Source of the DNA: Deroplatys truncata | Taxonomy: Eukaryota > Arthropoda > Insecta > Mantodea > Mantidae | DNA: 64,000 nucleotides | NCBI GenBank assembly: GCA_030765065.1 | Contig: CM060976.1 | Location: forward strand, 57,272,539 to 57,336,538 | Direction of reading: 5' to 3' | Part shown: in pieces, positions 4,226-49,707 of the stretch | Position numbering within the stretch: position 1 is the first letter of the stretch | How the letters are laid out: each line of letters starts with the position of its first letter | Program-made: the position numbers and the translations under genes | Notes under the pieces: generated by a model | Told to the model about the DNA's origin: nothing | Database searches by the model: none | Seen by the model: the letters and a program-made list of their open reading frames with translations, nothing else

Positions 4226-4665
4226 TGTGACATTTGGTTAGGGTAATGTTTGTTTGTTGGTTGGGAAATGTATGTAATAGTGTGTGGGTTGGTAACAGAG
4301 ATCGTATGATGTCAGAATAGTGGGGGAAACCGGTTCGTTAGAAGGTAGCGTCAGATGTTGCTGTCTCTTGCAAGGAAGCACTCGTGTGGGATGGCCACAA
4401 CATGATCGACGCGTCGCCGATGCAAACAGGTAACATTTTGTATCTATTTATATCCAATACATATTTATCAATCTAGAATTCTGGCATGTGATTTTCGGCA
4501 GCTATTTGATCCTTCTTCCTTCTCATACAATGTTTTAGGAATCTTTAGGTGTATTTAGGATTTTGTTGAGCTTGCCCCGTCGGACCTCGTGTAGTTTATG
4601 ATGCCTTAAATACCGGTACCTAACGCTCTACCCCCATTGAGCTAAAATATAAAGAGGTTACGATA
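4226..4665 (+). repeat. 5' LTR of the 4226-8568 element
   Basis: This aligns end to end with 8129-8568. Its last part holds, on the minus strand, a tRNA D-arm-like block (TAGCTCAATGGGGGTAGAGC) that resembles a pol III A box. Confidence 0.85.
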
Positions 4666-23900: not shown

Positions 23901-24144
23901 CGATGCAGTATAATCAAGTCACACCCCAAGCTTCAGCTGCCAGTTTTAACCACAAGATTCCAAAATCCAAGCTGGAATCATTCAACAGCAACTCAGCATG
24001 CGATAAAGATGAACATCCCTGCTTCAGAGGCGTACAGGAATGTAGCACGTGAAGTTTAGTTAACAGGACGGACCACCGTCCCACTCTCTCAGACATAAAA
24101 GCCAATAAAATCTGAGTTCCTGTTCCCACAGCCCAGTAGTAATA

Positions 24145-24294
24145 GTCCCGGATGAGCCAATTGTTTTTAACGATAATCCTGCCGCTAGGGGCGCTAGTGT
24201 CGCTAGTGTCGCTGCGTGCGACGGCGGCGGCGGTAAGTTTGAAAAGCGCCCTGAGCGTTAGGATTATCGTTAAATCGGTTGGCTCATCCGGGAC
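24145..24294. mobile_element. 150-bp MITE-like terminus, left end of palindrome
   Basis: It begins GTCCCGGATGAGCCAATTG and ends with the inverse of GTCCCGGATGAGCCAACCG. The inverted ends of about 40 bp share TTTAACGATAATCCT. The middle is GC-rich (GGCGCTAGTGTCGCTAGTG, then a GGC run). It is either a separate MITE or the true end of the large element. Confidence 0.75.
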
Positions 24295-24299
24295 GAGTT

Positions 24300-26875
24300 G
24301 GAAGAATTGAGGAAGTGACGTGTAGTGTTTTGATTGGTTCGTTAATTTGGGGTGGGAGATGGAGGAAGGGAGATGGAGGAGTATGGAGTTCGCGTGATGG
24401 AGAGGAGCTGGGTGGCGAGGTGTTGTCTGTGCGGAGGTCGGTACTGAAAGAGGGGTAAAGATGGGGAGCGAGGGATAAAAAGTGTAACAGAAAGTGACGT
24501 GTGAAGTTGTGATTGGTGGGAGTAAGAAGTGATTTTATTGGTGGAAAGGAACAAATGAGAGTTGTTGATTGGTAGGAATAAGAGGGATTATGATTGGTGG
24601 AAAAGAAAAAGTTGTGGGAGTGGGGTATGTTGGAGGTGATGGGAAAGGTGAGTTTTGCTAGCAGCAAGATTTGCAAAAGCCTGTCTTGAACTGATCAGCA
24701 ATTTTTGAACGTCGGATGGTAGTTTTCTTGAGTGGATAGAGAGATGGGGGCGATATGAGATGCGGTGGCGAAAATGGGAACTAGACAAGGTTGTTGAGAC
24801 AAGAGGTTTAAGGACGAGGAAATTTGGAGGTTAGTGGTGAACACGGCGGTCGCAAGAGGTGGGGGTAAGGAGACGCGGTGGTGAGAATGGGAACTAAAAG
24901 AAGATGGCGGTAGCAAGAGGTTAGAAGAGTAGATTTTGAGGTTAAAATAGCGGGAACTAAAAATGGCGGAGGGTCTGCGACAAGGAGATGCGGTGAGAAC
25001 TAAACAAGATGGCGGACGCAAGAGGTGGGAAAGGAGGTTTGAGGTTACAGTACCAAAACATGAAAGGATATATTCCTACGCCAAGCAGGTCCGAAAAATA
25101 ATTATGCGTGTGTTACTTACCTGTTACCGGTGTGGATGCGTCACCAAAAGCGCGGCACGCGACGCGAAAAAATAAAAGCAAACTGTTTTTGAAAATGCTT
25201 AACCAGCTTTAAGATCAACCAACATCACTACGCACTGATATACCTAGGTTTTTAAAGCGGTACAGACACCCTTTGCAGAGGCGTAATTTAACTATACCAA
25301 AAACCTGGTACTGGACCATCGTGATGGTCGCTAGCGTACGTAGGAGCAGGGTTCTCAAGCCGGTCGAAAGCGGTCAAAAACGTGTACGACGTAGGTGTTC
25401 GCAGTAGCTGCTGTCGAGTCAACCGTCGAGGTGTGAATAAACGAGATCTGTTCTCGCCGGCAATTTGGTTCGGAGATGTGAGCAGCGGCGAGGTGTTGTC
25501 TGTGCGGAGGTCGGGACTGAAAGAGGGAAAAGATGGGGAGCGAGGGATAAAAAGTGTAACAGAAAGTGACGTGTGAAGTTGTGATTGGTGGGAATAAGAA
25601 GTGATTTTATTGGTGGAAAGGAGCAAATGAAAGTTGCTGATTGGTAAGAATAAGAGAGGTTATGATTGGTGGAAAGAAAAAGGAGTGGGGTATGTTGGAG
25701 GTGATGGGAAAGGTAAGTTTTGCTAGCAACAAGATTTGCAAAAGCCTGTCGTGAACTGATCAGCAATTTTTGAACGTTGGATGGTAGTTTTCTTGAGTGG
25801 ATAGAGAGATGGGGCGATATGAGATGCGGTGGCGAAAATGGGAACTAAACAAGGTGGTTGAGACAAGAGGTTTAAGGACGAGGAAAGTTGGAGGTTAGTG
25901 GTGAACATGGCGGTCGCAAGAGGTGGGGGTAAGGAGATGCGGTGGTGAGAATGGGAACTAAAAGAAGATGGCGGTAGCAAGAGGTTAGAAGAGTAGATTT
26001 TGAGGTTAAAATAGCGGGAACTAAAAATGGCGGAGGGTTTGCGACAAGGAGATGCGGTGAGAACTAAACAAGATGGCGGACGCAAGAGGAGGGTAAGGAG
26101 GTTTGAGGTTACAGTACCAAAACACGAAAGGATATATTCCTACGCCAAGCAGGTCCGAAAAATAATTATGCGTGTGTTACTTACCTGTTACCGGTGTGGA
26201 TGCGTCACCAAAAGCGCGGCACGCGAGGCGGAAAAATAAAAGCAAACTGTTTTTGAAAATGCTTAACCAGCTTTAAGATCAACCAACATCACTACGCACT
26301 GATATACCTAGGTTTTTAAAGCGGTACAGACACCCTTTGCAGAGGCGTAATTTAACTATACCAAAACCTGGTACTGGACCATCGTGATGGTCGCTAGCGT
26401 ACGTAGGAGCAGGGTTCTCAAGCCGGTCGAAAGCGGTCAAAAACGTGTACGACGTAGGTGTTGGCAGTAGCTGCTGCCGAGGCAACCGTCGAGGTGCGAA
26501 TGAACGAGATCTGTTCTTGCAGGCAATCTGGTTGAGAGATGAGAGGCGCGGTGGTAAAAATGTGAACTAAATAAGATGGCGGAGGCACGAAGTTGAGGTT
26601 AAGGAGCGGCGAGGCGTTGACTGTGCGGCGGTTGGGGTCTGAAAGAGGGGGAAAGATGGCGAACGAGGGATAAAAAGTATAACAGAAAGTGACGTGTGAA
26701 GTTGTGATTGGTGGGAATAAGAAGTGACGTTATTGGTGGAAAGGAACAAATGAAAGTTGCTGATTGGCGAGAATAAGAGAGATTATGATTGGTGGAAAGA
26801 AAAAAGGTGTGGGAGTGGGGTATGTTGGAGGTGATGGAAAAGGTGAGTTTTGCTACCAACAACATTTGCAAAAGC
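24300..26875 (-). repeat. 1,064-bp tandem units with CCAAT-rich promoter-like cassettes (left arm)
   Basis: Two full units and one partial unit lie in tandem; for example the same frame starts at 24963 and 26027, 1,064 bp apart. Read on the minus strand each cassette carries four CCAAT boxes about 30-40 bp apart (CCACCAATCATAATC and similar), a CACGTCAC CRE-like site, then repeated CCGCCATCTT segments. The full units also carry a strong donor (AACAG then GTAAGT). Open frames here are artefacts of the pyrimidine-rich strand. Confidence 0.8.
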
Positions 26876-26889
26876 CTATGCAGAACTCA

Positions 26890-27295
26890 TCAGCAATTTT
26901 AAATAACTAGTGTTTCGGGGGTTTTCTCTGGTTGGTAGACGAATGCAAGCTGTTTCTACCATACTTATATTATTCGTCTTTTTCCTTTTTTTTTTTAAAA
27001 TGACTAGTTTTTTTTTTTTTTTTTTTTTTTTTTGGGAGTTTTCTGCGGATGGTAAACAAATGCAAGCTCTTTCTGCTTTTTCATAGGTTTTCCCTGGTTG
27101 GTAGGCGTGATCGGTAAGCGTTAGAATACTCTTAGAGCTTTTTTCAGGTTTTTTAGCGGTTGTCCCTGGCCGGTAGGCAAATGATAAAGTTTTTCTATAA
27201 CGTCGTCGTTTTGGCTTGTGGCGCACGGATACTAGGCACGTACTCGCGCGCGCGCGCGCGCGCGCACACACACACACACACACTAAAATAGTAGC
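26890..27295 (-). repeat. Degenerate short repeats with (CG)n(CA)n tract (left arm)
   Basis: Read on the minus strand, a segment with TACCAACCAGGGAAAACC-like blocks recurs about four times, separated by A-rich stretches including a long A run. A (CG)n(CA)n tract lies at about 27245-27283. The open frame here is lysine-rich and reads the repeat in phase (YRPGTT.., YQPGKT.., LPTREN..), but no known protein is matched. Confidence 0.6.
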
Positions 27296-27302
27296 GTATA
27301 AA

Positions 27303-30300
27303 AAAAAACTGATGTGTTACACTCACATGACTTTCTCTACTCTTGTACAATCTAATTGGTAGCTTTTAAGCGATAGTCAAATATTTTAACGCTGGTTGCT
27401 ATGTGGCGAATTCCATTCTGTTTGCATGTTCAGGACATAAAAAAAATGAATAAACGAATTTGAGAAAAAGTATAAGTATTGGAAAATTTAAGGAAATAAC
27501 AAGCAATATCTCGAAAACGGTTCCCTCAACAAAAGAAACGTATATGACATAAGTTGTGTATTTTAACGCGATCTACATTTTTTGTGTAGTAAAATTTTGT
27601 CTATCTCTTATGGTTTACCAGTTATGCAAAAGTCGTTCACAATGAAGAATATTTTTGGAGACATTCCCAGAAAATTCGAGATATACATTTTATTTGACAT
27701 GACAATATCTTAAACATATGATGTTTTAATCAAAATCGTTAGAGCCGTTTTTGAGAAAATTAAAATTTTCGAAAAATGTTCCATGTAAAGGGTAGTCTGG
27801 GGTGGGGGGATTTTCTTGAAAACCTTCATGTCGTATCTCTGGAAGATACTGAACCTAAATACCAAGTTTGGTGTTTATCCGACTGTTCGTTTTTGAGTTA
27901 TGCTGTTCACAGACACACAGACACACAGACAGACACACACACGGACATGTTTCCAAAAATGCTTTTTTTTTTTTTTTTCTGGATTCAGTGATTCTCAAAA
28001 CATGTATTTCGAGTGAAATCTCGGTATCGAATTTTTGGGTGGAATGCAATACTTCCCCTACTTACTATACGTAGTAGAGAAAGTAAAAATGAATAACGCA
28101 TTTGAGAAAAAGTATAAGTATTGGAAAATTTAAAGGAAATAACAAGCAATATCTCGAAAAACGGTTCACTCAACAAAATAAATGTATATGGCATAAGTTG
28201 TGTATTTTAACGCGATCTACATTTTTTGTGTAGCAAACTTTTGTCTATCTCTTACGGTTTATCAGTTATGAAAAAGTCGTTCACAATGAAGAATTCTTTT
28301 GGAGACATTCCCAGAAAATTCGAGATATACATTTCATTTCTCTCGACATTATCTTAAATATATGATATTTTCATCAAAATCGTTAGAGCCATTTTTTAAT
28401 ACAAAGAGAACGGGATTTCACAAGTGAAACAGTACTGTGATAACGATACCACTGAAACAAAAAAAAAAATCTGATGTGTAACACTCACATGACTTTCTCA
28501 ACTCTTGTACAAAGTATTTTTACAAACGCTTATTCCCCATCTAGTTCATGTTAATCGAGATAAACATTTGCAAAATCTATTTTATTGCTAATTTTCTTGT
28601 ATAAAAAAAAAATCTGATGTGTAACACTCACATGACGTTCTCTACTCTTGTACAAAGTATTTTTACAAACGCTTATGCTCCATCTAGTTCATGTTAATCG
28701 AGATAAACATTTGCAAACTCTATTTTATTGCTAATTTTCTTGTAGATGTAGGGGAAAATATATTTACAAGGGGAATATAGAAAAACAGTAGCCTTTAAGC
28801 ACATACATATCTCTTAATAGCTGGTTGCTATGTGCAACACCATTCTTTTTGCCACAGATTAATACTGTTTGCATATCAAAGACAAAAAAAAATGAATAAC
28901 GAAGTCCCATTTGAGAAAATAAATATTGGAAAATTAACAAACAATATCTCGAAAACGGTTCACTCAACAACAAAAATGTATATTACATAAGATGTGTATT
29001 TTAACGCGATCTACATTTTTTGTGTAGTAAAATTTTGTCTATCTCTTACGGTTTTTCAGTTATGAAAAAGACGTTCACAATGAAGAATACTTTTGGAGAC
29101 ATTCCCAGAAAATTCGAGATATACATTTCATTTCTCACGACATTATATTAAACATACGATATTTTTCATCAAAATCGTTAGAGCCATTTTTTTTAATACA
29201 AAGAGAACGGGATTTCACAAGTGAAACAGTACTGTGATAACGATACCAACAAAACTAATTATTATTCACCCACTGAAACACATAAAAAAAATCTGATGTG
29301 TAACACTCACATGACTTTTCTCATCTCTTGTACAAAGTATTTTTACAAACGCTTATTCCCCATCTAGTTCATGTTAATCGAGATAAACATTTGCAAACTC
29401 TGTTTTATTGCTAATTTTGTTGTAGATGTAGGGAAAATATATTTACAAGGGGAATATAGAAAAACAGTAGCCTTTAAGCACATACATATCTCTTAATAGC
29501 TGGTTGCTATGTGCAACACCATTCTTTTTGCCACAGATTAATACTGTTTGCATATCAAAGACAAAAAAAAAATGAATAACGAAGTCCCATTTGAGAAAAT
29601 AAATATTGGAAAATTAACAAACAATATCTCGAAAACGGTTCACTCAACAACAAAAATGTATATTACATAAGATGTGTATTTTAACGCGATCTACATTTTT
29701 TGTGTAGTAAAATTTTGTCTATCTCTTACGGTTTTTCAGTTATGAAAAAGACGTTCACAATGAAGAATACTTTTGGAGACATTCCCAGATAAATTCGAGA
29801 TATACATTTCATTTCTCACGACATTATATTAAACATACGATATTTTTCATCAAAATCGTTAGAGCCATTTTTTTTAATACAAAGAGAACGGGATTTCACA
29901 AGTGAAACAGTACTGTGATAACGATACCAACAAAACTAATTATTATTCACCCACTGAAACACATAAAAAAAATCTGATGTGTAACACTCACATGACTTTT
30001 CTCATCTCTTGTACAAAGTATTTTTACAAACGCTTATTCCCCATCTAGTTCATGTTAATCGAGATAAACATTTGCAAACTCTGTTTTATTGCTAATTTTG
30101 TTGTAGATGTAGGGAAAATATATTTACAAGGGGAATATAGAAAAACAGTAGCCTTTAAGCACATACATATCTCTTAATAGCTGGTTGCTATGTGCAGTAC
30201 CATTCTTTTTGCCACAGATTAATACTCTTTGCATATCAAAGACAAAAAAAAATGAATAACGAATTCCCATTTGAGAAAATAACTATTGGAAAATTTAAGT

Positions 30301-30390
30301 AAATAACAAGCAATATCTCGAAAACGGTTCACTCAACAATAAAGATGTATATGACATAAGTTGTGTATTTTAACGCGATCTACATACTTT
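27303..30390 (-). repeat. Tandem Rep-A copies (left arm)
   Basis: One nearly complete Rep-A copy (27303-28082) is followed by partial copies. The last are in tandem with a period of about 0.68 kb, judged from the recurring TCTGATGTGTAACACTCACA at about 28470, 28614, 29291 and 29972. All are on the minus strand. The copies within the array are nearly identical to each other, unlike the dispersed copies, so the tandem growth is recent. Confidence 0.8.
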
Positions 30391-30840
30391 CGTACTCACC
30401 TATAAGATATAGAGGGTAGAGGTCGTACGAACGTAGCACTTTGAGAATCTATATTCAACAGTTGGTGTTACTCCTTAGAAAGGAAGTATCTGCTGATTTT
30501 TATTTAATTCTTTACATTTTACATAACACGTATGCACTGGCACAGCACAAAAGCACTACACACAATACTCAGTTTTAATATTTGCACTAATAACATCAGG
30601 AATAACTGAAGTCTGCAAACAGTCATTTCCCATGGGCAGCCTTACGTACAGAAAACGTGTGTGGCTGATCTATGCGTAAAAAGAGCCTGAGAGCGGATGT
30701 ACGTCAACGGTAAAATCTTTTAAATGCATTTTTATTGGCGATGGTAGAAAACGTGCAGTGGTGGATCGTGAAAATTCATATAAATGGATGTATCACCTCA
30801 TAATAAGCCTCTATATACCAAGAATATTGAGTTTTTAAAA
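30391..30840 (-). promoter_or_regulatory. Promoter/first-exon-like segment ending in a splice donor (left arm)
   Basis: On the minus strand, this unique 450-bp segment lies downstream of the minisatellite and ends CTTATAG then GTGAGTACG. The donor is strong and the segment has no long open frame, so a non-coding first exon is one reading. It has no match elsewhere in the window except its mirror copy. Function is inferred only from the donor and the position. Confidence 0.35.
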
Positions 30841-30846
30841 AGTCAG

Positions 30847-32404
30847 CAACTGTACCTGTGTTTCTATACGTGAACGTCAGATGACAGCTTCGATACGTGT
30901 CCACGGAGACCTTAGTGCTAGGCAACTGTACCTCTGTTTCTATACGTGAACGGCAGATTGCAGCTTCGATACGTGTCCACGGAGACCTTAGTGCTAGGCA
31001 ACTGTACCTCTGTTTCTATACGTGAACGGCAGATTGCAGCTTCGATACGTGTCCACGGAGACCTTAGTGCTAGGCAACTGCACCTCTGTTTCTATACGTG
31101 AACGGCAGATTGCAGCTTCGATACGTGTCCACGGAGACCTTAGCGCTAGGCAACTGCACCTCTGTTTCTATACGTGAACGGCAGATTGCAGCTTCGATAC
31201 GTGTCCACGGAGACCTTAGTGCTAGGCAACTGTACCTCTGTTTCTATACGTGAACGGCAGATTGCAGCTTCGATACGTGTCCACGGAGACCTTAGTGCTA
31301 GGCAACTGTACCTCTGTTTGTATACGTGAACGGCAGATTGCAGCTTCGATACGTGTCCACGGAGACCTTAGTGCTAGGCAACTGCACCTCTGTTTCTATA
31401 CGTGAACGGCAGATTGCAGCTTCGATACGTATCCACGGAGACCTTAGTGCTAGGCAACTGCACCTCTGTTTCTATACGTGAACGGCAGATTGCAGCTTCA
31501 ATACGTGTCCACGGAGACCTTAGTGCTAGGCAACTGTACCTCTGTTTCTATACGTGAACGGGAGATTGCAGCTTCGATACGTGTCCACGGAGACCTTAGT
31601 GCTAGGCAACTGCACCTCTGTTTCTATACGTGAACGTCAAATTGCAGCTTCGATACGTGTCCACGGAGACCTTAGTGCTAGGCAACTGCACCTCTGTTTC
31701 TATACGTGAACGGCAGATTGCAGCTTCGATACGTATCCACGGGGACCTTAGTGCTAGGGAACTGCACCTCTGTTTGTATACGTGAACGGCAGATTGCAGC
31801 TTCAATACGTGTACACGGAGACCTTAGTGCTAGGCAGCTGTACCTCTGTTTCTATACGTGAACGGCAGATTGCAGCTTCGATACGTGTCCACGGAGATCT
31901 TAGTGCTAGGCAGCTATACCTGTTTCTATACGTGAACGTCAGATTGCAGCTTCGATACGTGTTCACGGAGACCTTAGTGCTAGGCAACTGTACCTGTGTT
32001 TCTATACGTGTCCACGGAGACCTTAGTGCTAGACAACTGTACCTCTGTTTCTATACGTGAACGGCAGATTGCAGCTTCAATACGTGTCCACGGAGACCTT
32101 AGTGCTAGTGCTAGGCAACTATACCTCTGTTTCTATACGTGAACGGCAGATTGCAGGTTCGATACGTGTCCACGGAGATCTTAGTGCTAGGCAACTATAC
32201 CTGTTTCTATACGTGAACGGCAGATTGCAGCTTCGATACGTGTCCACGGAGACCTTAGTGCTAGGCAACTGTACCTGTGTTTCTATACGTGAACGTCAGA
32301 TGGCAGCTTCGATACGTGTCCACGGAGACCTTAGTGTTAGGCAACTGTACCTCTGTTTCTATACGTGAACGGCAGATTGCAGCTTCGATACGTGTCCACG
32401 GAGA
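30847..32404. repeat. 76-bp minisatellite, about 20 copies (left arm)
   Basis: The unit includes TTTCTATACGTGAACGGCAG and CGATACGTGTCCACGGAGAC. Successive TTTCTATACG starts at 30861, 30937 and 31013 fix the 76-bp period. Each unit has two ACGTG cores 27 bp apart. A few units are shortened or carry duplicated pieces. The open frames in it (for example 31782-32368) exist only because the unit lacks stops in some frames. Confidence 0.95.
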
Positions 32405-32616
32405 CCTTTCGCTTCAGGTGACAAAATAACACTAGGCACTTGTGTGCCGTGGTGTAAGCCGCAATCACGGTATTGGTAGCGTGGATCTCCTTGGGGCTCT
32501 CCTCGGAGTTACCTCAACACCACGTACATGACCTGGTTCGTCACGGGTACGCAGGTCTGCACTACCACTTCCTCGGCGTTGAGCAGGCCCAGGAGGCGAT
32601 CGTACCGGTACACCAG
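32405..32616 (-). pseudogene. Fossil fragment of protein-primed family B DNA polymerase (left arm)
   Basis: This is the mirror copy of 33354-33565. See that entry for the motif. It is a broken remnant. Confidence 0.55.
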
Positions 32617-32679
32617 CTAGCACGTGGACATGTTATCGCGCGGTGGTGTTGCGTGTGCGAGGTATGGAAACTCAAGGAC

Positions 32680-32880
32680 GCAAAACATGCACGACCGAGG
32701 GTTAAAAAGCAGAACAAGTAGTGACGTGGAGCGTTGTGATTGGTGTAAATAAGACGATCTCTGATAGGTGGACAAATTGAAATAACGTGATGTGATAGGC
32801 GAAAATAAAATCAAAGGTGATTGGATGAAAAATGACGAGAAGGAATTAGCGGTGAATTTGTGAACTAAGATGGCGAAGAT
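32680..32880 (-). promoter_or_regulatory. Central CCAAT/CRE cassette (left arm)
   Basis: This is the mirror copy of 33090-33300. It reads away from the centre, toward the polymerase fossil. Confidence 0.5.
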
Positions 32881-32971
32881 TTTTTTTTTTTTTAAAAAAA
32901 AGGATAATATAAGTACGGCAACTGTAACGGTTTACGGCAAACGCGCGCCGCGCAATGCGTCACGCCCGGGC

Positions 32972-33000
32972 AATAAAACAAAAATCATATTGAGCAAGAT
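32972..33000. other. Palindrome spacer
   Basis: This 29-bp asymmetric, A-rich segment joins the two arms. On both sides stands GC-rich sequence (CGCGCGCCGCGCAATGCGTC) with a TTTTTAAAAA-type run slightly further out. In single strands the arms would form a hairpin with this as the loop. Confidence 0.85.
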
Positions 33001-33089
33001 GCCCGGCGTGACGCATTGCGCGGCGCGCGTTTGCCGTAAACCGTTACAGTTGCCGTACTTATATTATCCTTTTTTTTAAAAAAAAAAAA

Positions 33090-33300
33090 ATCTTCGCCAT
33101 CTTAGTTCACAAATTCACCGCTAATTCCTTCTCGTCATTTTTCATCCAATCACCTTTGATTTTATTTTCGCCTATCACATCACGTTATTTCAATTTGTCC
33201 ACCTATCAGAGATCGTCTTATTTACACCAATCACAACGCTCCACGTCACTACTTGTTCTGCTTTTTAACCCTCGGTCGTGCATGTTTTGCGTCCTTGAGT
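33090..33300 (+). promoter_or_regulatory. Central CCAAT/CRE cassette (right arm)
   Basis: It contains CGCCATCTTAGTTC, CCAAT at 33146-33150 and 33227-33231, CACGTCAC at 33242-33249, then TTTTTAACCCTCGG. The same order of blocks (CCAATCACAAC, CACGTCAC, TTTTTATCCCTCG) makes up the outer 1,064-bp cassettes, so these are homologous. It stands just upstream of the polymerase-like fragment on the same strand, as a native promoter would. Confidence 0.55.
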
Positions 33301-33353
33301 TTCCATACCTCGCACACGCAACACCACCGCGCGATAACATGTCCACGTGCTAG

Positions 33354-33565
33354 CTGGTGTACCGGTACGATCGCCTCCTGGGCCTGCTCAACGCCGAGGA
33401 AGTGGTAGTGCAGACCTGCGTACCCGTGACGAACCAGGTCATGTACGTGGTGTTGAGGTAACTCCGAGGAGAGCCCCAAGGAGATCCACGCTACCAATAC
33501 CGTGATTGCGGCTTACACCACGGCACACAAGTGCCTAGTGTTATTTTGTCACCTGAAGCGAAAGG
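33354..33565 (+). pseudogene. Fossil fragment of protein-primed family B DNA polymerase, Polinton-like (right arm)
   Basis: This GC-rich island has markedly different composition from its surroundings. At 33496-33528 it reads NTVIAAYTTAH, the conserved helix just before the catalytic YxDTD motif of protein-primed family B polymerases of Polintons/Mavericks and related insect viruses. Upstream residues are also compatible with that family. Only about 70 codons' worth remain; the fragment is broken and stops where the minisatellite begins. No capsid, integrase or protease was seen. An adintovirus- or bidnavirus-type source is possible. The assignment rests on remembered motifs. Confidence 0.6.
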
Positions 33566-35123
33566 TCTCCGTGGACACGTATCGAAGCTGCAATCTGCCG
33601 TTCACGTATAGAAACAGAGGTACAGTTGCCTAACACTAAGGTCTCCGTGGACACGTATCGAAGCTGCCATCTGACGTTCACGTATAGAAACACAGGTACA
33701 GTTGCCTAGCACTAAGGTCTCCGTGGACACGTATCGAAGCTGCAATCTGCCGTTCACGTATAGAAACAGGTATAGTTGCCTAGCACTAAGATCTCCGTGG
33801 ACACGTATCGAACCTGCAATCTGCCGTTCACGTATAGAAACAGAGGTATAGTTGCCTAGCACTAGCACTAAGGTCTCCGTGGACACGTATTGAAGCTGCA
33901 ATCTGCCGTTCACGTATAGAAACAGAGGTACAGTTGTCTAGCACTAAGGTCTCCGTGGACACGTATAGAAACACAGGTACAGTTGCCTAGCACTAAGGTC
34001 TCCGTGAACACGTATCGAAGCTGCAATCTGACGTTCACGTATAGAAACAGGTATAGCTGCCTAGCACTAAGATCTCCGTGGACACGTATCGAAGCTGCAA
34101 TCTGCCGTTCACGTATAGAAACAGAGGTACAGCTGCCTAGCACTAAGGTCTCCGTGTACACGTATTGAAGCTGCAATCTGCCGTTCACGTATACAAACAG
34201 AGGTGCAGTTCCCTAGCACTAAGGTCCCCGTGGATACGTATCGAAGCTGCAATCTGCCGTTCACGTATAGAAACAGAGGTGCAGTTGCCTAGCACTAAGG
34301 TCTCCGTGGACACGTATCGAAGCTGCAATTTGACGTTCACGTATAGAAACAGAGGTGCAGTTGCCTAGCACTAAGGTCTCCGTGGACACGTATCGAAGCT
34401 GCAATCTCCCGTTCACGTATAGAAACAGAGGTACAGTTGCCTAGCACTAAGGTCTCCGTGGACACGTATTGAAGCTGCAATCTGCCGTTCACGTATAGAA
34501 ACAGAGGTGCAGTTGCCTAGCACTAAGGTCTCCGTGGATACGTATCGAAGCTGCAATCTGCCGTTCACGTATAGAAACAGAGGTGCAGTTGCCTAGCACT
34601 AAGGTCTCCGTGGACACGTATCGAAGCTGCAATCTGCCGTTCACGTATACAAACAGAGGTACAGTTGCCTAGCACTAAGGTCTCCGTGGACACGTATCGA
34701 AGCTGCAATCTGCCGTTCACGTATAGAAACAGAGGTACAGTTGCCTAGCACTAAGGTCTCCGTGGACACGTATCGAAGCTGCAATCTGCCGTTCACGTAT
34801 AGAAACAGAGGTGCAGTTGCCTAGCGCTAAGGTCTCCGTGGACACGTATCGAAGCTGCAATCTGCCGTTCACGTATAGAAACAGAGGTGCAGTTGCCTAG
34901 CACTAAGGTCTCCGTGGACACGTATCGAAGCTGCAATCTGCCGTTCACGTATAGAAACAGAGGTACAGTTGCCTAGCACTAAGGTCTCCGTGGACACGTA
35001 TCGAAGCTGCAATCTGCCGTTCACGTATAGAAACAGAGGTACAGTTGCCTAGCACTAAGGTCTCCGTGGACACGTATCGAAGCTGTCATCTGACGTTCAC
35101 GTATAGAAACACAGGTACAGTTG
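33566..35123. repeat. 76-bp minisatellite, about 20 copies (right arm)
   Basis: Mirror of 30847-32404, with the same unit variants in mirrored order, so the array was copied as a block and not expanded independently. Confidence 0.95.
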
Positions 35124-35575
35124 CTGACTTTTTAAAAACTCAATATTCTTGGTATATAGAGGCTTATTATGAGGTGATACATCCATTTATATGAATTTTC
35201 ACGATCCACCACTGCACGTTTTCTACCATCGCCAATAAAAATGCATTTAAAAGATTTTACCGCTGACGTACATCCGCTCTCAGGCTCTTTTTACGCATAG
35301 ATCAGCCACACACGTTTTCTGTACGTAAGGCTGCCCATGGGAAATGACTGTTTGCAGACTTCAGTTATTCCTGATGTTATTAGTGCAAATATTAAAACTG
35401 AGTATTGTGTGTAGTGCTTTTGTGCTGTGCCAGTGCATACGTGTTATGTAAAATGTAAAGAATTAAATAAAAATCAGCAGATACTTCCTTTCTAAGGAGT
35501 AACACCAACTGTTGAATATAGATTCTCAAAGTGCTACGTTCGTACGACCTCTACCCTCTATATCTTATAGGTGAG
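35124..35575 (+). promoter_or_regulatory. Promoter/first-exon-like segment ending in a splice donor (right arm)
   Basis: Mirror of 30391-30840. The donor GT is at 35571 (CTTATAG then GTGAGTACG). The one arm-to-arm substitution I found lies here, at 35263. Confidence 0.35.
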
Positions 35576-35584
35576 TACGAAAGT

Positions 35585-38500
35585 ATGTAGATCGCGTTAA
35601 AATACACAACTTATGTCATATACATCTTTATTGTTGAGTGAACCGTTTTCGAGATATTGCTTGTTATTTACTTAAATTTTCCAATAGTTATTTTCTCAAA
35701 TGGGAATTCGTTATTCATTTTTTTTTTGTCTTTGATATGCAAAGAGTATTAATCTGTGGCAAAAAGAATGGTACTGCACATAGCAACCAGCTATTAAGAG
35801 ATATGTATGTGCTTAAAGGCTACTGTTTTTCTATATTCCCCTTGTAAATATATTTTCCCTACATCTACAACAAAATTAGCAATAAAACAGAGTTTGCAAA
35901 TGTTTATCTCGATTAACATGAACTAGATGGGGAATAAGCGTTTGTAAAAATACTTTGTACAAGAGATGAGAAAAGTCATGTGAGTGTTACACATCAGATT
36001 TTTTTTATGTGTTTCAGTGGGTGAATAATAATTAGTTTTGTTGGTATCGTTATCACAGTACTGTTTCACTTGTGAAATCCCGTTCTCTTTGTATTAAAAA
36101 AAATGGCTCTAACGATTTTGATGAAAAATATCGTATGTTTAATATAATGTCGTGAGAAATGAAATGTATATCTCGAATTTATCTGGGAATGTCTCCAAAA
36201 GTATTCTTCATTGTGAACGTCTTTTTCATAACTGAAAAACCGTAAGAGATAGACAAAATTTTACTACACAAAAAATGTAGATCGCGTTAAAATACACATC
36301 TTATGTAATATACATTTTTGTTGTTGAGTGAACCGTTTTCGAGATATTGTTTGTTAATTTTCCAATATTTATTTTCTCAAATGGGACTTCGTTATTCATT
36401 TTTTTTTTGTCTTTGATATGCAAACAGTATTAATCTGTGGCAAAAAGAATGGTGTTGCACATAGCAACCAGCTATTAAGAGATATGTATGTGCTTAAAGG
36501 CTACTGTTTTTCTATATTCCCCTTGTAAATATATTTTCCCTACATCTACAACAAAATTAGCAATAAAACAGAGTTTGCAAATGTTTATCTCGATTAACAT
36601 GAACTAGATGGGGAATAAGCGTTTGTAAAAATACTTTGTACAAGAGATGAGAAAAGTCATGTGAGTGTTACACATCAGATTTTTTTTATGTGTTTCAGTG
36701 GGTGAATAATAATTAGTTTTGTTGGTATCGTTATCACAGTACTGTTTCACTTGTGAAATCCCGTTCTCTTTGTATTAAAAAAAAATGGCTCTAACGATTT
36801 TGATGAAAAATATCGTATGTTTAATATAATGTCGTGAGAAATGAAATGTATATCTCGAATTTTCTGGGAATGTCTCCAAAAGTATTCTTCATTGTGAACG
36901 TCTTTTTCATAACTGAAAAACCGTAAGAGATAGACAAAATTTTACTACACAAAAAATGTAGATCGCGTTAAAATACACATCTTATGTAATATACATTTTT
37001 GTTGTTGAGTGAACCGTTTTCGAGATATTGTTTGTTAATTTTCCAATATTTATTTTCTCAAATGGGACTTCGTTATTCATTTTTTTTTGTCTTTGATATG
37101 CAAACAGTATTAATCTGTGGCAAAAAGAATGGTGTTGCACATAGCAACCAGCTATTAAGAGATATGTATGTGCTTAAAGGCTACTGTTTTTCTATATTCC
37201 CCTTGTAAATATATTTTCCCCTACATCTACAAGAAAATTAGCAATAAAATAGAGTTTGCAAATGTTTATCTCGATTAACATGAACTAGATGGAGCATAAG
37301 CGTTTGTAAAAATACTTTGTACAAGAGTAGAGAACGTCATGTGAGTGTTACACATCAGATTTTTTTTTTATACAAGAAAATTAGCAATAAAATAGATTTT
37401 GCAAATGTTTATCTCGATTAACATGAACTAGATGGGGAATAAGCGTTTGTAAAAATACTTTGTACAAGAGTTGAGAAAGTCATGTGAGTGTTACACATCA
37501 GATTTTTTTTTTTGTTTCAGTGGTATCGTTATCACAGTACTGTTTCACTTGTGAAATCCCGTTCTCTTTGTATTAAAAAATGGCTCTAACGATTTTGATG
37601 AAAATATCATATATTTAAGATAATGTCGAGAGAAATGAAATGTATATCTCGAATTTTCTGGGAATGTCTCCAAAAGAATTCTTCATTGTGAACGACTTTT
37701 TCATAACTGATAAACCGTAAGAGATAGACAAAAGTTTGCTACACAAAAAATGTAGATCGCGTTAAAATACACAACTTATGCCATATACATTTATTTTGTT
37801 GAGTGAACCGTTTTTCGAGATATTGCTTGTTATTTCCTTTAAATTTTCCAATACTTATACTTTTTCTCAAATGCGTTATTCATTTTTACTTTCTCTACTA
37901 CGTATAGTAAGTAGGGGAAGTATTGCATTCCACCCAAAAATTCGATACCGAGATTTCACTCGAAATACATGTTTTGAGAATCACTGAATCCAGAAAAAAA
38001 AAAAAAAAAAAGCATTTTTGGAAACATGTCCGTGTGTGTGTCTGTCTGTGTGTCTGTGTGTCTGTGAACAGCATAACTCAAAAACGAACAGTCGGATAAA
38101 CACCAAACTTGGTATTTAGGTTCAGTATCTTCCAGAGATACGACATGAAGGTTTTCAAGAAAATCCCCCCACCCCAGACTACCCTTTACATGGAACATTT
38201 TTCGAAAATTTTAATTTTCTCAAAAACGGCTCTAACGATTTTGATTAAAACATCATATGTTTAAGATATTGTCATGTCAAATAAAATGTATATCTCGAAT
38301 TTTCTGGGAATGTCTCCAAAAATATTCTTCATTGTGAACGACTTTTGCATAACTGGTAAACCATAAGAGATAGACAAAATTTTACTACACAAAAAATGTA
38401 GATCGCGTTAAAATACACAACTTATGTCATATACGTTTCTTTTGTTGAGGGAACCGTTTTCGAGATATTGCTTGTTATTTCCTTAAATTTTCCAATACTT

Positions 38501-38672
38501 ATACTTTTTCTCAAATTCGTTTATTCATTTTTTTTATGTCCTGAACATGCAAACAGAATGGAATTCGCCACATAGCAACCAGCGTTAAAATATTTGACTA
38601 TCGCTTAAAAGCTACCAATTAGATTGTACAAGAGTAGAGAAAGTCATGTGAGTGTAACACATCAGTTTTTTT
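35585..38672 (+). repeat. Tandem Rep-A copies (right arm)
   Basis: Mirror of 27303-30390. Homopolymer runs before the GAATAACGAA-type block differ by a base or two from the left arm, which is why small open frames differ between the arms. Confidence 0.8.
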
Positions 38673-38679
38673 TTATACG

Positions 38680-38685
38680 CTACTA

Positions 38686-38721
<36 letters not shown>

Positions 38722-39090
38722 CGCGCGCGCGAGTACGTGCCTAGTATCCGTGCGCCACAAGCCAAAACGACGACGTTATAGAAAAACTTTATCATTTGCC
38801 TACCGGCCAGGGACAACCGCTAAAAAACCTGAAAAAAGCTCTAAGAGTATTCTAACGCTTACCGATCACGCCTACCAACCAGGGAAAACCTATGAAAAAG
38901 CAGAAAGAGCTTGCATTTGTTTACCATCCGCAGAAAACTCCCAAAAAAAAAAAAAAAAAAAAAAAAAACTAGTCATTTTAAAAAAAAAAAGGAAAAAGAC
39001 GAATAATATAAGTATGGTAGAAACAGCTTGCATTCGTCTACCAACCAGAGAAAACCCCCGAAACACTAGTTATTTAAAATTGCTGATGAG
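38680..39090 (+). repeat. Degenerate short repeats with (GT)n(GC)n tract (right arm)
   Basis: Mirror of 26890-27295. The dinucleotide tract differs in length between arms, so a longer open frame is seen here (158 codons from 38624). Confidence 0.6.
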
Positions 39091-39099
39091 TTCTGCATA

Positions 39100-41680
39100 G
39101 GCTTTTGCAAATGTTGTTGGTAGCAAAACTCACCTTTTCCATCACCTCCAACATACCCCACTCCCACACCTTTTTTCTTTCCACCAATCATAATCTCTCT
39201 TATTCTCGCCAATCAGCAACTTTCATTTGTTCCTTTCCACCAATAACGTCACTTCTTATTCCCACCAATCACAACTTCACACGTCACTTTCTGTTATACT
39301 TTTTATCCCTCGTTCGCCATCTTTCCCCCTCTTTCAGACCCCAACCGCCGCACAGTCAACGCCTCGCCGCTCCTTAACCTCAACTTCGTGCCTCCGCCAT
39401 CTTATTTAGTTCACATTTTTACCACCGCGCCTCTCATCTCTCAACCAGATTGCCTGCAAGAACAGATCTCGTTCATTCGCACCTCGACGGTTGCCTCGGC
39501 AGCAGCTACTGCCAACACCTACGTCGTACACGTTTTTGACCGCTTTCGACCGGCTTGAGAACCCTGCTCCTACGTACGCTAGCGACCATCACGATGGTCC
39601 AGTACCAGGTTTTGGTATAGTTAAATTACGCCTCTGCAAAGGGTGTCTGTACCGCTTTAAAAACCTAGGTATATCAGTGCGTAGTGATGTTGGTTGATCT
39701 TAAAGCTGGTTAAGCATTTTCAAAAACAGTTTGCTTTTATTTTTCCGCCTCGCGTGCCGCGCTTTTGGTGACGCATCCACACCGGTAACAGGTAAGTAAC
39801 ACACGCATAATTATTTTTCGGACCTGCTTGGCGTAGGAATATATCCTTTCGTGTTTTGGTACTGTAACCTCAAACCTCCTTACCCTCCTCTTGCGTCCGC
39901 CATCTTGTTTAGTTCTCACCGCATCTCCTTGTCGCAAACCCTCCGCCATTTTTAGTTCCCGCTATTTTAACCTCAAAATCTACTCTTCTAACCTCTTGCT
40001 ACCGCCATCTTCTTTTAGTTCCCATTCTCACCACCGCATCTCCTTACCCCCACCTCTTGCGACCGCCATGTTCACCACTAACCTCCAACTTTCCTCGTCC
40101 TTAAACCTCTTGTCTCAACCACCTTGTTTAGTTCCCATTTTCGCCACCGCATCTCATATCGCCCCATCTCTCTATCCACTCAAGAAAACTACCATCCAAC
40201 GTTCAAAAATTGCTGATCAGTTCACGACAGGCTTTTGCAAATCTTGTTGCTAGCAAAACTTACCTTTCCCATCACCTCCAACATACCCCACTCCTTTTTC
40301 TTTCCACCAATCATAACCTCTCTTATTCTTACCAATCAGCAACTTTCATTTGCTCCTTTCCACCAATAAAATCACTTCTTATTCCCACCAATCACAACTT
40401 CACACGTCACTTTCTGTTACACTTTTTATCCCTCGCTCCCCATCTTTTCCCTCTTTCAGTCCCGACCTCCGCACAGACAACACCTCGCCGCTGCTCACAT
40501 CTCCGAACCAAATTGCCGGCGAGAACAGATCTCGTTTATTCACACCTCGACGGTTGACTCGACAGCAGCTACTGCGAACACCTACGTCGTACACGTTTTT
40601 GACCGCTTTCGACCGGCTTGAGAACCCTGCTCCTACGTACGCTAGCGACCATCACGATGGTCCAGTACCAGGTTTTTGGTATAGTTAAATTACGCCTCTG
40701 CAAAGGGTGTCTGTACCGCTTTAAAAACCTAGGTATATCAGTGCGTAGTGATGTTGGTTGATCTTAAAGCTGGTTAAGCATTTTCAAAAACAGTTTGCTT
40801 TTATTTTTTCGCGTCGCGTGCCGCGCTTTTGGTGACGCATCCACACCGGTAACAGGTAAGTAACACACGCATAATTATTTTTCGGACCTGCTTGGCGTAG
40901 GAATATATCCTTTCATGTTTTGGTACTGTAACCTCAAACCTCCTTTCCCACCTCTTGCGTCCGCCATCTTGTTTAGTTCTCACCGCATCTCCTTGTCGCA
41001 GACCCTCCGCCATTTTTAGTTCCCGCTATTTTAACCTCAAAATCTACTCTTCTAACCTCTTGCTACCGCCATCTTCTTTTAGTTCCCATTCTCACCACCG
41101 CGTCTCCTTACCCCCACCTCTTGCGACCGCCGTGTTCACCACTAACCTCCAAATTTCCTCGTCCTTAAACCTCTTGTCTCAACAACCTTGTCTAGTTCCC
41201 ATTTTCGCCACCGCATCTCATATCGCCCCCATCTCTCTATCCACTCAAGAAAACTACCATCCGACGTTCAAAAATTGCTGATCAGTTCAAGACAGGCTTT
41301 TGCAAATCTTGCTGCTAGCAAAACTCACCTTTCCCATCACCTCCAACATACCCCACTCCCACAACTTTTTCTTTTCCACCAATCATAATCCCTCTTATTC
41401 CTACCAATCAACAACTCTCATTTGTTCCTTTCCACCAATAAAATCACTTCTTACTCCCACCAATCACAACTTCACACGTCACTTTCTGTTACACTTTTTA
41501 TCCCTCGCTCCCCATCTTTACCCCTCTTTCAGTACCGACCTCCGCACAGACAACACCTCGCCACCCAGCTCCTCTCCATCACGCGAACTCCATACTCCTC
41601 CATCTCCCTTCCTCCATCTCCCACCCCAAATTAACGAACCAATCAAAACACTACACGTCACTTCCTCAATTCTTCCAACT
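39100..41680 (+). repeat. 1,064-bp tandem units with CCAAT-rich cassettes (right arm)
   Basis: Mirror of 24300-26875. The donors AACAG then GTAAGT fall at 39792 and 40855, one unit apart. All cassettes read outward from the palindrome centre. Confidence 0.8.
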
Positions 41681-41681
41681 C

Positions 41682-41831
41682 GTCCCGGATGAGCCAACCG
41701 ATTTAACGATAATCCTAACGCTCAGGGCGCTTTTCAAACTTACCGCCGCCGCCGTCGCACGCAGCGACACTAGCGACACTAGCGCCCCTAGCGGCAGGAT
41801 TATCGTTAAAAACAATTGGCTCATCCGGGAC
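41682..41831. mobile_element. 150-bp MITE-like terminus, right end of palindrome
   Basis: Mirror of 24145-24294. Immediately outside are CTAT then TA and a unique flank. Confidence 0.75.
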
Positions 41832-41839
41832 TATTACTC

Positions 41840-42451
41840 AGCCCACGCAACAACTCACTAAAGCAAACTAGGCTGTCCAAATGACCTAGTATTATTTCCA
41901 TGTATTTCATATAGAAGATTTGTTCATTTTCGAGAATTTACAATTAAAACTAGCAGCTGATACCTTGCATGTAGCCTTCTTATGTTACGTTGATTCTGTC
42001 ACAGGAATTTTTTGGGTGGGTTTCGGCATGAGGTTTACTTTTGTAGGAAATTGTGAAAAATACTGTCCTGTCTGTAAATGCGATACTTTTATTTTAAAAA
42101 GGTGGTCTGCTGTTTTATCAATGACATTAGTAAACATTTTAGAGTATTTTTAAACATAAAAGTAAACGAAAACTGAAAATATTGTCATTTAAATGAGAAA
42201 CTTAGACGTCTATCATTTTAAAAGAGAAAATACTTAAACGTTGTGTAATTTATTGATCACGACCTATTTGTTTTAAATTACATAACCTTTAGACTTTTTC
42301 TTGAAAACATTCTCGAAGAATAATTAGCATTAAAATGTTTTTCAGAATGCTTTATTCTTTTGATACTGTAATTTAATGTATCCTGTGGCAGTCGTCTAAT
42401 AATACAGAAGAAGTGCGATTCCCAACCCAACTAACCTCTGAATTAACTTAC
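41840..42451. other. Intron DNA between palindrome and CUB1 exon
   Basis: Nothing recognised. The frame at 41920-42153 has no family features. Confidence 0.4.
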
Positions 42452-42709
42452 CTGTAGGTGAAGGTATCACTTCATACACTGCTGCGAAACCTTTGCCCTC
42501 GATGGTGTCATCAGAGTTGAATCGTAACCAAAGATAACGTGAAGAGGAATAGATCATATCAGGGAAGGTGTTGCCGCAGTACGCGCCGATGCGCTTATTG
42601 TAGCCATGGCCACCGTCTCGAACCTCCAGGTAATCATATGAACAGTTAAGGTGATACTCCAGGTCAAACTGGTCTCTGAAGTCCAGTTTTATTAGCTCCC
42701 CGGGCCCCG
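42452..42709 (-). CDS. Neto: Neto homologue, exon encoding the second part of CUB1
   Basis: The 258-bp minus-strand exon has acceptor TTTGTTTCAG and donor CACCTACAG then GTAAGT, is in phase 1 at both ends, and encodes 85 full codons. It encodes most of a CUB domain: GPGELIKLDFRDQFDLE.., NCSYDYLEVRDGGHGY, IGAYCGNTFPD, SSSRYLWLRFNSDDTIEGKG, FAAVYEVIPSPT. The C..DYLEVRDG..., YCG, S..LW..F.SD..(I)EG.GF.A.Y order and the trailing P.P match CUB1 of vertebrate NETO1/2, where an intron enters at the same place. CUB domains are extracellular and contact receptor subunits. The acidic residues of the usual calcium site (Y-D.. and D..) are retained. The exon with the first half of CUB1 was not found upstream. 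Confidence 0.9.
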
Positions 42710-43159
42710 CTGAAACAAAAGAATAATCATTTAATGAATATCAATCTTGGGATGAATTATTATGCATTAATAATTCTAGTAGACAATATATTTGAAGGCT
42801 ATTTCAATTGAAGGAATATTAAATAATACCATTAAACAGCAAAATGCTTTCTTTATGGTTAAAGGACAGGCAATACTGAAATAACATAGTTTTTGTTGCC
42901 AGTCTACTGTAGGCATAACATTCTTTCCTCTCATATTTCGGACCTAGGTTCTAATCCCGACAGGATCCATTTGCTAGTTGATGGCATATTCCGGACTTTT
43001 CTTGGTCCATTAGCCTTTCAGATATCAAAGTTCATTTGTTGCTTTTATTCCATACGTTCAGATTAAAGAACATAAAAAAGTATGCCGAAATATGTCGAAA
43101 ATTTGTGAAGGCATAGTTTTGTAGCCGCAATTACGCCCAAATTAAAATTCGTACACAGC

Positions 43160-46220: not shown

Positions 46221-46862
46221 AAGTGTATTTAAATTATATTCGAACCCACTCACGGCCTCTCTCTACTCCGCAAGACAGCCGGCATCGCCGGGGACTAAAA
46301 TCCATAATAGACGCTGGAAATGTTGACCTTCTGCCCTGAAAAAGGCAGCATATTCGCTCACTCTCCGAAGCTCAGCAGCAGGAATTCTTGTGATTTCCTG
46401 CACAATGTTTTCTCTAAGTTCCTGTAGTGTGCGAGGATTGGAACGATACACTTTGTCATTTAAAGAACCCCATAAATAAAAATCACAACTCCTTAGGACA
46501 AGAGAACGAGGGGGCCACAAATCAAAACTAATTATTCTGTCATCAAACACCTCTCTTATTGCATGTAATGATTCGGCAGCCGTATGTGCTGTTGCAGAAT
46601 CTTGCTGGAACCAACCATACGATTTCTCTTCTTCTGTCAAGCGATTGCAAAATGGCCTCAGAATTAATCTCAGATATCGCTCTGCATTTATTGTTTCATC
46701 AAAGAATATGGGCCCTATTATTCTTCTAGCACTTATCGCACACCACACTCCAATTTTCTGATCTAATGAGGCGTTTCATCACAAGAATTTCCCTGCCGAC
46801 TGCCGCCTGTCTCGCGCAGTAGACAGACGCCGCGAGTGGATTCGAATATAATTTAACTACCC
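46221..46862 (-). mobile_element. 642-bp TIR transposon with truncated DDE transposase
   Basis: Inverted ends of about 70 bp match (TTAAATTATATTCGAA-CCAC, then CGGC-TCT-TCTAC). TA lies at 46219-46220 and 46863-46864. The minus-strand frame runs from about 46782 to 46263: DQKIGVWCAISARRIIGPIF, GWFQQDSATAHTA, WPPRS, CDFYLWGSLNDKVY, EITRIPAAELRRV. This is the C-terminal half of the insect IS630/Tc1-mariner group that usually begins with DUF4817. The usual SPDLSPCDF appears as SLVLRSCDF, so one conserved aspartate is lost. The N-terminal half is deleted, so this is a non-autonomous copy. Confidence 0.85.
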
Positions 46863-48471: not shown

Positions 48472-49707
48472 CACACTATGTGATCAAAAGTATCCGGACA
48501 CCCCACAAACATACATTTTTCATTTTAGGTGCAATTGTGCTGCCACCTACTGCCTGATACTCATTATCCGCGACCTCAGTAGTCACCAGACATCGTGAAA
48601 CAGCAGAGTGGGACGCTCCGTGGAACTTACAGACTTTGAACGTGGTCAGGTGATTGGGTGTCACCTGTGTCAGAAGTTTGTACGCGAGATTTCCGCACTC
48701 CTAAACATCTCTAGATCCACTGTTTCTGATGTGATAGTGAAGTGGAAACGTGAAGAGACAAAAGCGTACAGGCCGACCTCGTCTGTTGACTTTCAGAGAC
48801 CGCCGACATTTGAAGAGGGCCGTAAAGAGTAATAGGCAGACATCTATCCAGACCATCATACAGGAATTCCAAACTGCATCAGGATCCACTTTGAAGTACT
48901 ATGACAGTTAGGCGTGAGGTGAGAAACCTTGGATTCCATGGTCGAGCAGCTGCTCATAAGCCACACATCACGCAGGAAAATGCCAAACGACGCCTCGCTT
49001 GGTGTAAGGAGCGACAACATTACACGATTGAACAGTGGCTAAACGTTCTGTGGAGTGACGAATCACGGTACATAATGTGGCAATCCAATGGCAGGGTGTG
49101 GGTATGGCGAATGCCCGGTGAACGTCATCTGCCAGCATGTGTAATGCCAACAGTGAAATTCGGAGGTGGTAGTGTAATGGTGTGGTCGTGTTTTTCCTGG
49201 AGAGGGCTTGCACCCCTTGTTGTTTTGCGTGACACGATCACAGCGCAAACCTACTTGATATTTTAAGCACCTTCTTGCTTCCCACTGTTGAAGAGCAATT
49301 CGGGGATGGCGATTGCATCTTTCAACAGATCGAGCACCTGTTCATACTGCACGGGCTGTGGCGGAGTGGTTACACGACAATAACATCCCTGTAATGGACT
49401 GGCCTGCACAGAGGCCTGACTTGAATCCTATAGAACACCTTTGGAATGTTTTGGAACGCCGGCTTCGTGCCAGGCCTCATCGACGTACATCGTTACCTCT
49501 CCTCAGTTCCGCACCGTGAAGAATGGGCTACCATTCCCCAAGAAAGCTTCCAGCACCTGATTGAAATTATGCCTGCGAGAGTGAACACTGTCATCAAGGC
49601 TAAGGGTGCGCCGACACCATATTGTCTTCCAGCATTACCAATGGAGGGCGACACGAACTTGTACGTCATTTTCAGCCAGGTGTCCGGATAGTTTTGATCA
49701 CGTAGTG
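48472..49707 (+). mobile_element. Tc1-like transposon, both inverted repeats, transposase broken
   Basis: The ends are CACTATGTGATCAAAAGTAT and the inverse CACTACGTGATCAAAACTAT, each followed by CCGGACACC. TA lies outside (48470-48471, 49708-49709). Plus-strand transposase pieces in order: 48608-48832 (VELTDFERGQVIG, SRSTVSDVI helix-turn-helix), 48901-49266 ([26 protein letters not shown] with the first catalytic aspartate, [22 protein letters not shown]), 49313-49519 (TDRAPVHTA with the second aspartate, RPDLNPIEHLWNVLERRLR with the glutamate). Frameshifts separate these three blocks, about 340 codons in all as usual for the family. The DD34E residues persist. Confidence 0.92.

Follow-up and report, generated by a model that had tools for sequence, protein, structure and literature searches.

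A highly amplified, palindromic and non-autonomous Polinton derivative in the genome of the mantis Deroplatys truncata

Background

How does a near-perfect palindrome of 17.7 kb come to stand in an animal chromosome? The question is raised by a stretch of 64,000 nucleotides from the mantis Deroplatys truncata (C2:57272539-57336538 of a 4.29-Gb assembly), which is called the window below and within which positions given without a contig name are counted. The original prediction, made from the letters of the window, saw in this palindrome an unusual single object that matched no standard transposon plan, and offered a giant fold-back transposon or the head-to-head dimer of a linear element as explanations. 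The palindrome is, instead, one of hundreds of copies of a highly amplified, palindromic, non-autonomous Polinton (or Maverick) without a whole gene. Such an element is probably a Polinton derivative with two left ends joined head to head, which was made and homogenised in protein-primed replication and inserted by a Polinton integrase. In Polintons, capsid genes have been described besides the polymerase and integrase genes.

Results

The palindrome is one inserted element

Comparison of the window with itself (self-BLAST) gives a single inverted alignment, from 24138 to 41838, with 99.78% identity over 17.7 kb, and bears out the near-identical palindrome with 8.84-kb arms that had been predicted. 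At this arm length, nearly the whole element is taken up by inverted repeat. An arm-to-arm alignment that omits the 10-nt tips and the loop covers 8.82 kb and shows 2 substitutions together with 5 short gaps, 7 bases in all. The unpaired loop is 27 nt long, to which the predicted spacer of 29 bp came close without being exact.

Copies of CAGCCC stand immediately outside both ends (Table 1); therefore, the element extends from 24135 to 41838, and not from 24138 as had been proposed. This 6-bp target-site duplication confirms the earlier claims that the palindrome is one inserted element and that its flanks are genuinely joined, and it replaces the TA on both sides that had been taken for the duplication.

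Table 1. Positions of the palindrome, its ends and its internal sequence blocks in the window
Feature	Position	Strand	Basis or remark
Left target-site duplication CAGCCC	24129..24134		Same 6 bp at 41839-41844
Left arm of palindrome	24135..32972	+	Self-alignment and arm-to-arm alignment; loop coordinates read from sequence
Left tip AGTAGTAATA, i.e., (AGT)2 + AATA	24135..24144	+	Identical in nine sampled pairs
Homology to left (non-coding) Polinton end	24135..27116; mirror ~38857-41838	+	Against C1:6689410-6708113: arm 1-1354, 96.3%; arm 1353-2982, 94.9%
Left terminal self-complementary hairpin, ~150 nt	24145..24294	+	DNA fold z -13.6
Repeat units of ~680 bp (arm ~3163-6256)	27297..30390	+	Mirrored in right arm
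76-bp tandem array, left	30846..32408; mirror 33562-35124	+	Self-comparison
PolB gene fragment, sense strand outward	32412..32627; mirror ~33343-33558	-	blastn 76.9% over 216 bp; tblastn 62.8% over 43 aa, E 5e-11
Central loop, 27 nt, unpaired	32973..32999		Read from sequence
Right arm of palindrome	33000..41838	-	Self-alignment and arm-to-arm alignment
Right terminal hairpin	41682..41831	-	Sequence and self-alignment; mirror of left
Right tip TATTACT	41832..41838	-	One ACT unit fewer than in nine sampled pairs
Right target-site duplication CAGCCC	41839..41844		Copy of left 6 bp

The ends are of the Polinton type

A search of the genome with the terminal sequence, which the original prediction had suggested, was run with the terminal 463 bp, and many further loci were found. 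Forty full-length places were obtained (the best 40 of 1,747 first-look candidates), and 32 of them form 16 +/- pairs with a spacing of 15.8-19.0 kb. Nine further copies with both ends were all drawn from these 40 places; the fetched halves L027 and L028, which show one end only, were excluded from the count of duplications. In all nine copies, a 6-bp direct repeat stands directly outside the 10-nt tips, AGTAGTAATA and TATTACTACT. The flanks of the nine copies are unlike beyond the first few bases; therefore, the copies are separate insertions, and the mobility of the element is established. A TA duplication, and with it a Tc1/mariner reading, was considered and rejected, since the flanks of the other copies carry 6-bp repeats. 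Two triplet units are present at 19 of the 20 ends in the window and the nine pairs. The exception is the right end in the window, which has one unit, and the missing ACT unit would fit a slip on the terminal triplets.

In vertebrate Mavericks, (AGT)2//(ACT)2 is the commonest end motif, the target-site duplications are 6 bp, the total length is 12.7-24.6 kb, and the terminal repeats of intact elements measure 46-1,447 bp, according to PMC8097293. A duplication of 6 bp is found in the window as well as in all nine sampled pairs, and the end motif is of the (AGT)2//(ACT)2 type. The Polinton type of these ends is thus established; they fit a published transposon plan, contrary to what had been supposed. 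Directly inside the tips lie the terminal hairpins, where the DNA fold z is -13.6 for the palindrome, -6.6, -8.7 and -11.7 for the hairpins in the corresponding position of three Polintons, and 0.65 for one control stretch.

A genome-wide family of similar lengths

The 38-nt stretch at the centre (32967-33004; up to 3 mismatches) occurs 823 times in the genome, 413 times on the + strand and 410 times on the - strand, and the 24-nt tip (up to 2 mismatches) occurs 4,693 times, 2,357 forward and 2,336 reverse. The controls gave no match in either orientation in both searches. Near-equal counts are what would be expected of a symmetric element that has an orientation in its loop alone. Since the family is genome-wide and the controls are zero, neither chance nor a one-off misassembly can account for the palindrome. 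A unique misassembly had also been considered as a candidate in its own right, and was rejected in view of the 823 centres and the nine other copies with duplications. It is therefore well supported that the palindrome is a member of a large mobile family. If every centre sits in a full copy of ~17.7 kb, the family is estimated to occupy ~14.6 Mb, or ~0.3% of the genome.

On contig C1, the tips among the matches listed form 60 pairs, with 13 single tips. Among these matches, 22 of the 60 pairs contain a centre and are 16.4-18.6 kb long; the distance from the centre to the midpoint of the pair has a median of 16 bp and a maximum of 609 bp, and is within 10 bp in 11 pairs. Seen from the centres, 22 of the 37 listed on C1 fall inside a listed tip pair. 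The listed pairs are at most 19,801 bp long in 58 of the 60 cases, four being shorter than 14 kb, and the remaining two measure 25.2 and 27.6 kb. The five coding elements measured (on C12 and C11, C3:26567215-26586608, and those starting at C1:6689410 and C1:80867430) are 18.2-19.8 kb long. The element lengths fit a size limit on replication or packaging, without proving one.

Coding Polintons share the left end of the palindrome

The same genome abounds in polymerases of the family PF03175, with at least 152 matches (from the best 76 of 11,882 candidates). The element at C12:22167816-22186023 codes for PolB and for an integrase core with a chromodomain. Its tips carry (AGT)2, its terminal repeat of 146 bp (97.9% identity) folds as a hairpin, and its duplication is CACATA. 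Six further Polinton flank windows of 4.4 kb were folded to locate the tips, and three were resolved: at the best-folding place, L032 and L034 have the tip AGTAGTA, and L036 has a tip of the C12 type. The closest to the palindrome among these flank windows is L034, the left end of C11:175070296-175089690, where the left end of a Polinton is defined as the end from which PolB reads inward. The C11 element has the tip AGTAGTATTGGTCCCGGATTAGCC, related to that of the palindrome, the duplication AACGAT, and a PolB frame of 1,270 aa. Its left 532 bp match arm positions 1-512 at 71.8%, and its right end aligns over the terminal repeat alone.

Two elements on C1 complete the comparison. The tip of C1:6689410-6708113 is one mismatch from that of the window, its duplication is TCCACG, and PolB lies in its middle. 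This element is not palindromic, its ends having just 159 bp in common. One end is arm-like (Table 1), and the opposite end carries open reading frames (ORFs) and resembles the right end of the C11 element. C1:80867430-80887186 (19.76 kb) has the exact tip of the window at both ends and the duplication GATGAC. Its left end matches arm positions 1-1177 at 96.8%, its right end carries ORFs and is 93% identical to the right end of C1:6689410-6708113, and its PolB frame is open across the 1,500 bp read. A coding-type element with tips identical to those of the palindrome thus resides in the same genome. The terminal inverted repeats are shared with coding Polintons, the first 160 bp being 93.1-96.8% identical to those of two coding elements, and the existence of coding partners is established.

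The arms match the left end of conventional Polintons, and the right end is matched only within the terminal repeat. Therefore, the palindrome is made of two Polinton left ends, head to head, a conclusion which these alignments support well. The predicted head-to-head dimer of a linear element was close in that two copies are joined, though what is present twice is one Polinton end only, the left.

The PolB stretch of C1:6689410-6708113 has at least 73 matches of 98-100% identity (the best 73 of 8,190 candidates), and 68 of these 73 are free of stops within the matched stretch. Most of the listed PolB copies lie in open frames of ~1,276 aa, the tips being known for the first copy alone. To judge from these closely similar copies, coding Polintons were active recently in this genome.

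The arms of a copy vary in concert

Complete arms (8.4-8.8 kb) were compared in five of the ten copies, the window included. Left out were L015, L023 and L025 (halves short of the centre), L021/L022 (variant core) and L013/L014 (unlike arms). Within each of the five copies, 0-2 substitutions separate the two arms, and no difference in length between them reaches 20 bp. Between copies, the arms differ by 3-32 substitutions in all 40 comparisons, and by length changes of at least 20 bp in 28 of them. Of the 44 such length changes listed, 28 are multiples of 76 bp within a base and 16 are 104 bp; all are common to both arms of a copy. The length of the 76-bp array differs among some of the five copies, and never between the arms of one copy. 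By multiple alignment over 8.8 kb, in which the substitution counts are inflated by alignment errors in the arrays, the within-copy substitutions are 0 in L015, 0 in L023, 6 in L025 and 9 in L021 (partly past the centre).

The five copies share one centre; therefore, the palindrome predates the split between them. If nothing equalised them, the two arms of a copy should be at least as far apart as the copies are from each other. Since the arms differ less within than between copies, one arm must repeatedly template or correct the other. The concerted state of the arms is thus established for these five copies.

Arm anatomy and coding content

The outer 3 kb of the arm is left-end sequence, in part duplicated. 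Farther in lie the ~680-bp units and the 76-bp array (Table 1); internal repeats of ~1.07 kb are also found in the arms. Inward of the PolB fragment, near the centre, there is another piece of the left-end block. On one strand of the first 2.8 kb of the arm (24135-26934), three promoter-like motifs were counted against 100 shuffles: AAGATGGC occurs 6 times (expected 0.1, shuffle maximum 1), ATTGGT 12 times (expected 1.3, shuffle maximum 4) and TGACGT 5 times (expected 1.2, the best shuffle likewise giving 5). We take these to resemble YY1, NF-Y and CRE sites, respectively. It may be speculated that transcription of both arms toward the centre would give a long hairpin RNA.

No whole gene was found in the palindrome by ORF list, Pfam or tblastn with Polinton ORF pieces. 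The 13 left-arm ORFs of at least 90 aa contain no Pfam family above the cut-off, and so show neither integrase nor capsid genes by Pfam; with 185 Polinton ORF pieces as queries (E up to 1e-4), the 361-aa integrase ORF of L030 has no match in the palindrome. All that is found of a protein-primed PolB is a fragment of ~216 bp. Because PolB is reduced to a fragment, the palindrome is classed as a non-autonomous derivative and not as a Polinton proper. Against solved structures, the best E of the PolB stretch is only 0.088. Rfam at gathering scores gives no match in 24000-42000, and a distant blastn with arm 1-1866 gives none in phage records. In viral contigs, the exact tip has no match and the PolB stretch no pattern match, in a search from which near records may be left out.

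Neighbouring sequence

A CUB-domain exon of the host gene lies at 42396-42740 (-), ~560 bp to the right of the element (Pfam). Against solved structures, this exon matches NETO2 with 80.4 bits over one domain; cubilin and the neuropilins are higher in whole-sequence score, which sums several CUB domains. Also near the palindrome in the window are ORFs at 46263-46775 (-) and 48895-49266 (+). Inspected by eye, they are presumably pieces of Tc1/mariner transposases; the Pfam match of the former is below the cut-off and is to another family.

Discussion

Origin and replication

Template switching during protein-primed strand displacement is what we infer for the origin of the palindrome. On one occasion, a strand-displacing, protein-primed polymerase would have changed template and turned back to copy the strand that it had just displaced. 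The product would be linear and palindromic, with a functional left-end origin at each of its two ends. The coding Polintons could then supply the polymerase that replicates this molecule and the integrase that inserts it. Every displaced strand would fold up as a hairpin of 8.8 kb, and both arms would be re-equalised by repair or by further self-copying at the centre. There are parallels for parts of this scheme in three reports: subgenomic molecules of phi29 (1-8 kb, mainly from the right end) are tied to template switching by the polymerase (PMC4974454), the phi29 polymerase in vitro can turn onto the displaced strand unless a binding protein is added (PMC4176320), and AAV produces double-stranded snapback genomes (PMC8235507). 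Travel inside Polinton capsids would be possible, and the size range of the tip pairs on C1 is suggestive of it; Maverick viral particles have not been observed, according to PMC8097293.

A more far-reaching proposal, which we hold tentatively and judge possible rather than probable, is that the family lives as a gene-less snap-back satellite. It would carry two left-end origins, depend on a coding helper, keep within the packaging size range of that helper, have its symmetry renewed in each cycle, and be inserted by the helper integrase. Its transcripts would fold as 8-kb hairpin RNA that includes the polymerase fragment, and this RNA may act against the helper or supply small RNAs that silence it.

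Alternative explanations

The same Polinton derivative might owe its identical arms to gene conversion after insertion, as in chromosomal palindromes. Near-identical arms with just 27 nt between them lend themselves well to conversion, and the pattern of arm differences in the five copies does not by itself place the homogenisation. The copies are, however, young (3-32 substitutions over 8.4-8.8 kb), which leaves little time for full conversion, array lengths included, in five copies, and the arms of a second palindrome, L028/L043, are not homogenised; this explanation is therefore judged unlikely. Replication by a parvovirus-like rolling hairpin, primed by the terminal hairpins instead of by a terminal protein, would make use of the stable 150-nt hairpins at both ends (the left one folded, the right one its mirror). 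Yet the 10-nt AGTAGTAATA tail outside the stem would leave the 3' end without the pairing that self-priming needs, the polymerase encoded by the relatives is of PF03175, a group that includes protein-primed enzymes, and the (AGT)2 tips would suit sliding-back, so that this mode of replication seems decidedly improbable.

Long arms, internal tandem arrays and little unique centre are also features of Foldback- or Galileo-type cut-and-paste transposons with very long terminal inverted repeats, in line with the giant fold-back transposon of the original prediction. The target-site duplication is 9 bp in Foldback/MuDR-type elements and 7 bp in Galileo (P superfamily), whereas it is 6 bp in all nine pairs here; moreover, the tips and the left end belong to coding Polintons, one of them with identical tips, and no Pfam family came above the cut-off in the left-arm ORFs. 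A Foldback-type origin is thus very improbable, and that part of the prediction is abandoned. Inverted duplications are, finally, a recognised class of artefact in assembly or sequencing, which might arise here by hairpin read-through joined to the flanks. An artefact would hardly give unlike flanks with exact 6-bp duplications in nine of nine copies, 823 centres in both orientations, or arm-length variants that are common to both arms and absent from other copies, and it can scarcely be credited.

Several observations weigh against the preferred reading, that of a two-left-end Polinton derivative made and homogenised in protein-primed replication. The homogenisation could also come from chromosomal gene conversion. 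One of the nine sampled pairs, L013/L014 (C16:15592419-15611113), has unlike arms, the right being standard and the left another variant, with the duplication intact; its sequence suggests a hybrid origin from two lineages. In the L028/L043 palindrome (C16, ~69.696-69.708 Mb), seen on its right side with the left tip outside the data, the arms are just 96-98.6% identical, so that either some lineages do not regain their symmetry or this is an older copy. Its different centre, at arm position ~4.9 kb, suggests an independent fold-back event. Together with a 5.9-kb derivative (C1:233586282-233592204; duplication GGCGGC), in which the left end is present twice (447 bp at 96.4%) and the centre lies off the middle, it suggests repeated fold-backs and deletions. 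The orientation of the PolB fragment is opposite to that of the PolB gene in the coding relatives; therefore, a single simple left-end fold-back is insufficient, and two switches or a later inversion would be required. Three Polintons have repeats like the 680-bp units beyond their tips (L029 1-7342, L034 28-926 and L036 2740-3117). These may be a common genomic repeat or mark a favoured insertion neighbourhood, and some of the arm sequence may therefore be an ordinary repeat of the genome. No profile identified a terminal protein or capsid gene, and the 25.2-kb pair on C1 slightly weakens the argument for a size limit.

Significance and comparison with known systems

Near-perfect giant palindromes can, on this evidence, be common in an animal genome. 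The family is best explained by a linear, strand-displacing cycle, and would thereby be indirect evidence that such a cycle runs, and has done so recently; it shows a route from a defective snap-back genome to a successful mobile family. The fixed centre, with 823 genomic copies, is usable as a marker. The prediction is that palindromes of 16-19 kb also exist as linear molecules outside the chromosomes, perhaps in particles. Among the titles and abstract openings listed from the openly licensed literature, no report of palindromic or gene-less Polintons was found, and older work in subscription journals may exist.

Among known systems, Foldback and Galileo elements likewise have very long, internally repetitive inverted arms; they differ in duplication length (7-9 bp) and in their tips, and the partner of the palindrome is a Polinton. 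Polintons or Mavericks (adintovirus-like) share with the palindrome the 6-bp duplication, the (AGT)2//(ACT)2 ends and a similar total length; those of this genome that are coding also share its left end and terminal repeat, and a PolB fragment lies inside it. The palindrome differs from them in that it has no whole gene that could be found, two left ends and no right end, and arms of 8.84 kb compared with the 46-1,447-bp repeats given for intact vertebrate Mavericks in PMC8097293. The subgenomic molecules of phi29 and the snapback genomes of AAV are similar in being shortened genomes derived from one end. Those are molecules or particles, whereas the palindrome of Deroplatys truncata belongs to a family that resides in the chromosomes, where a single centre occurs 823 times.

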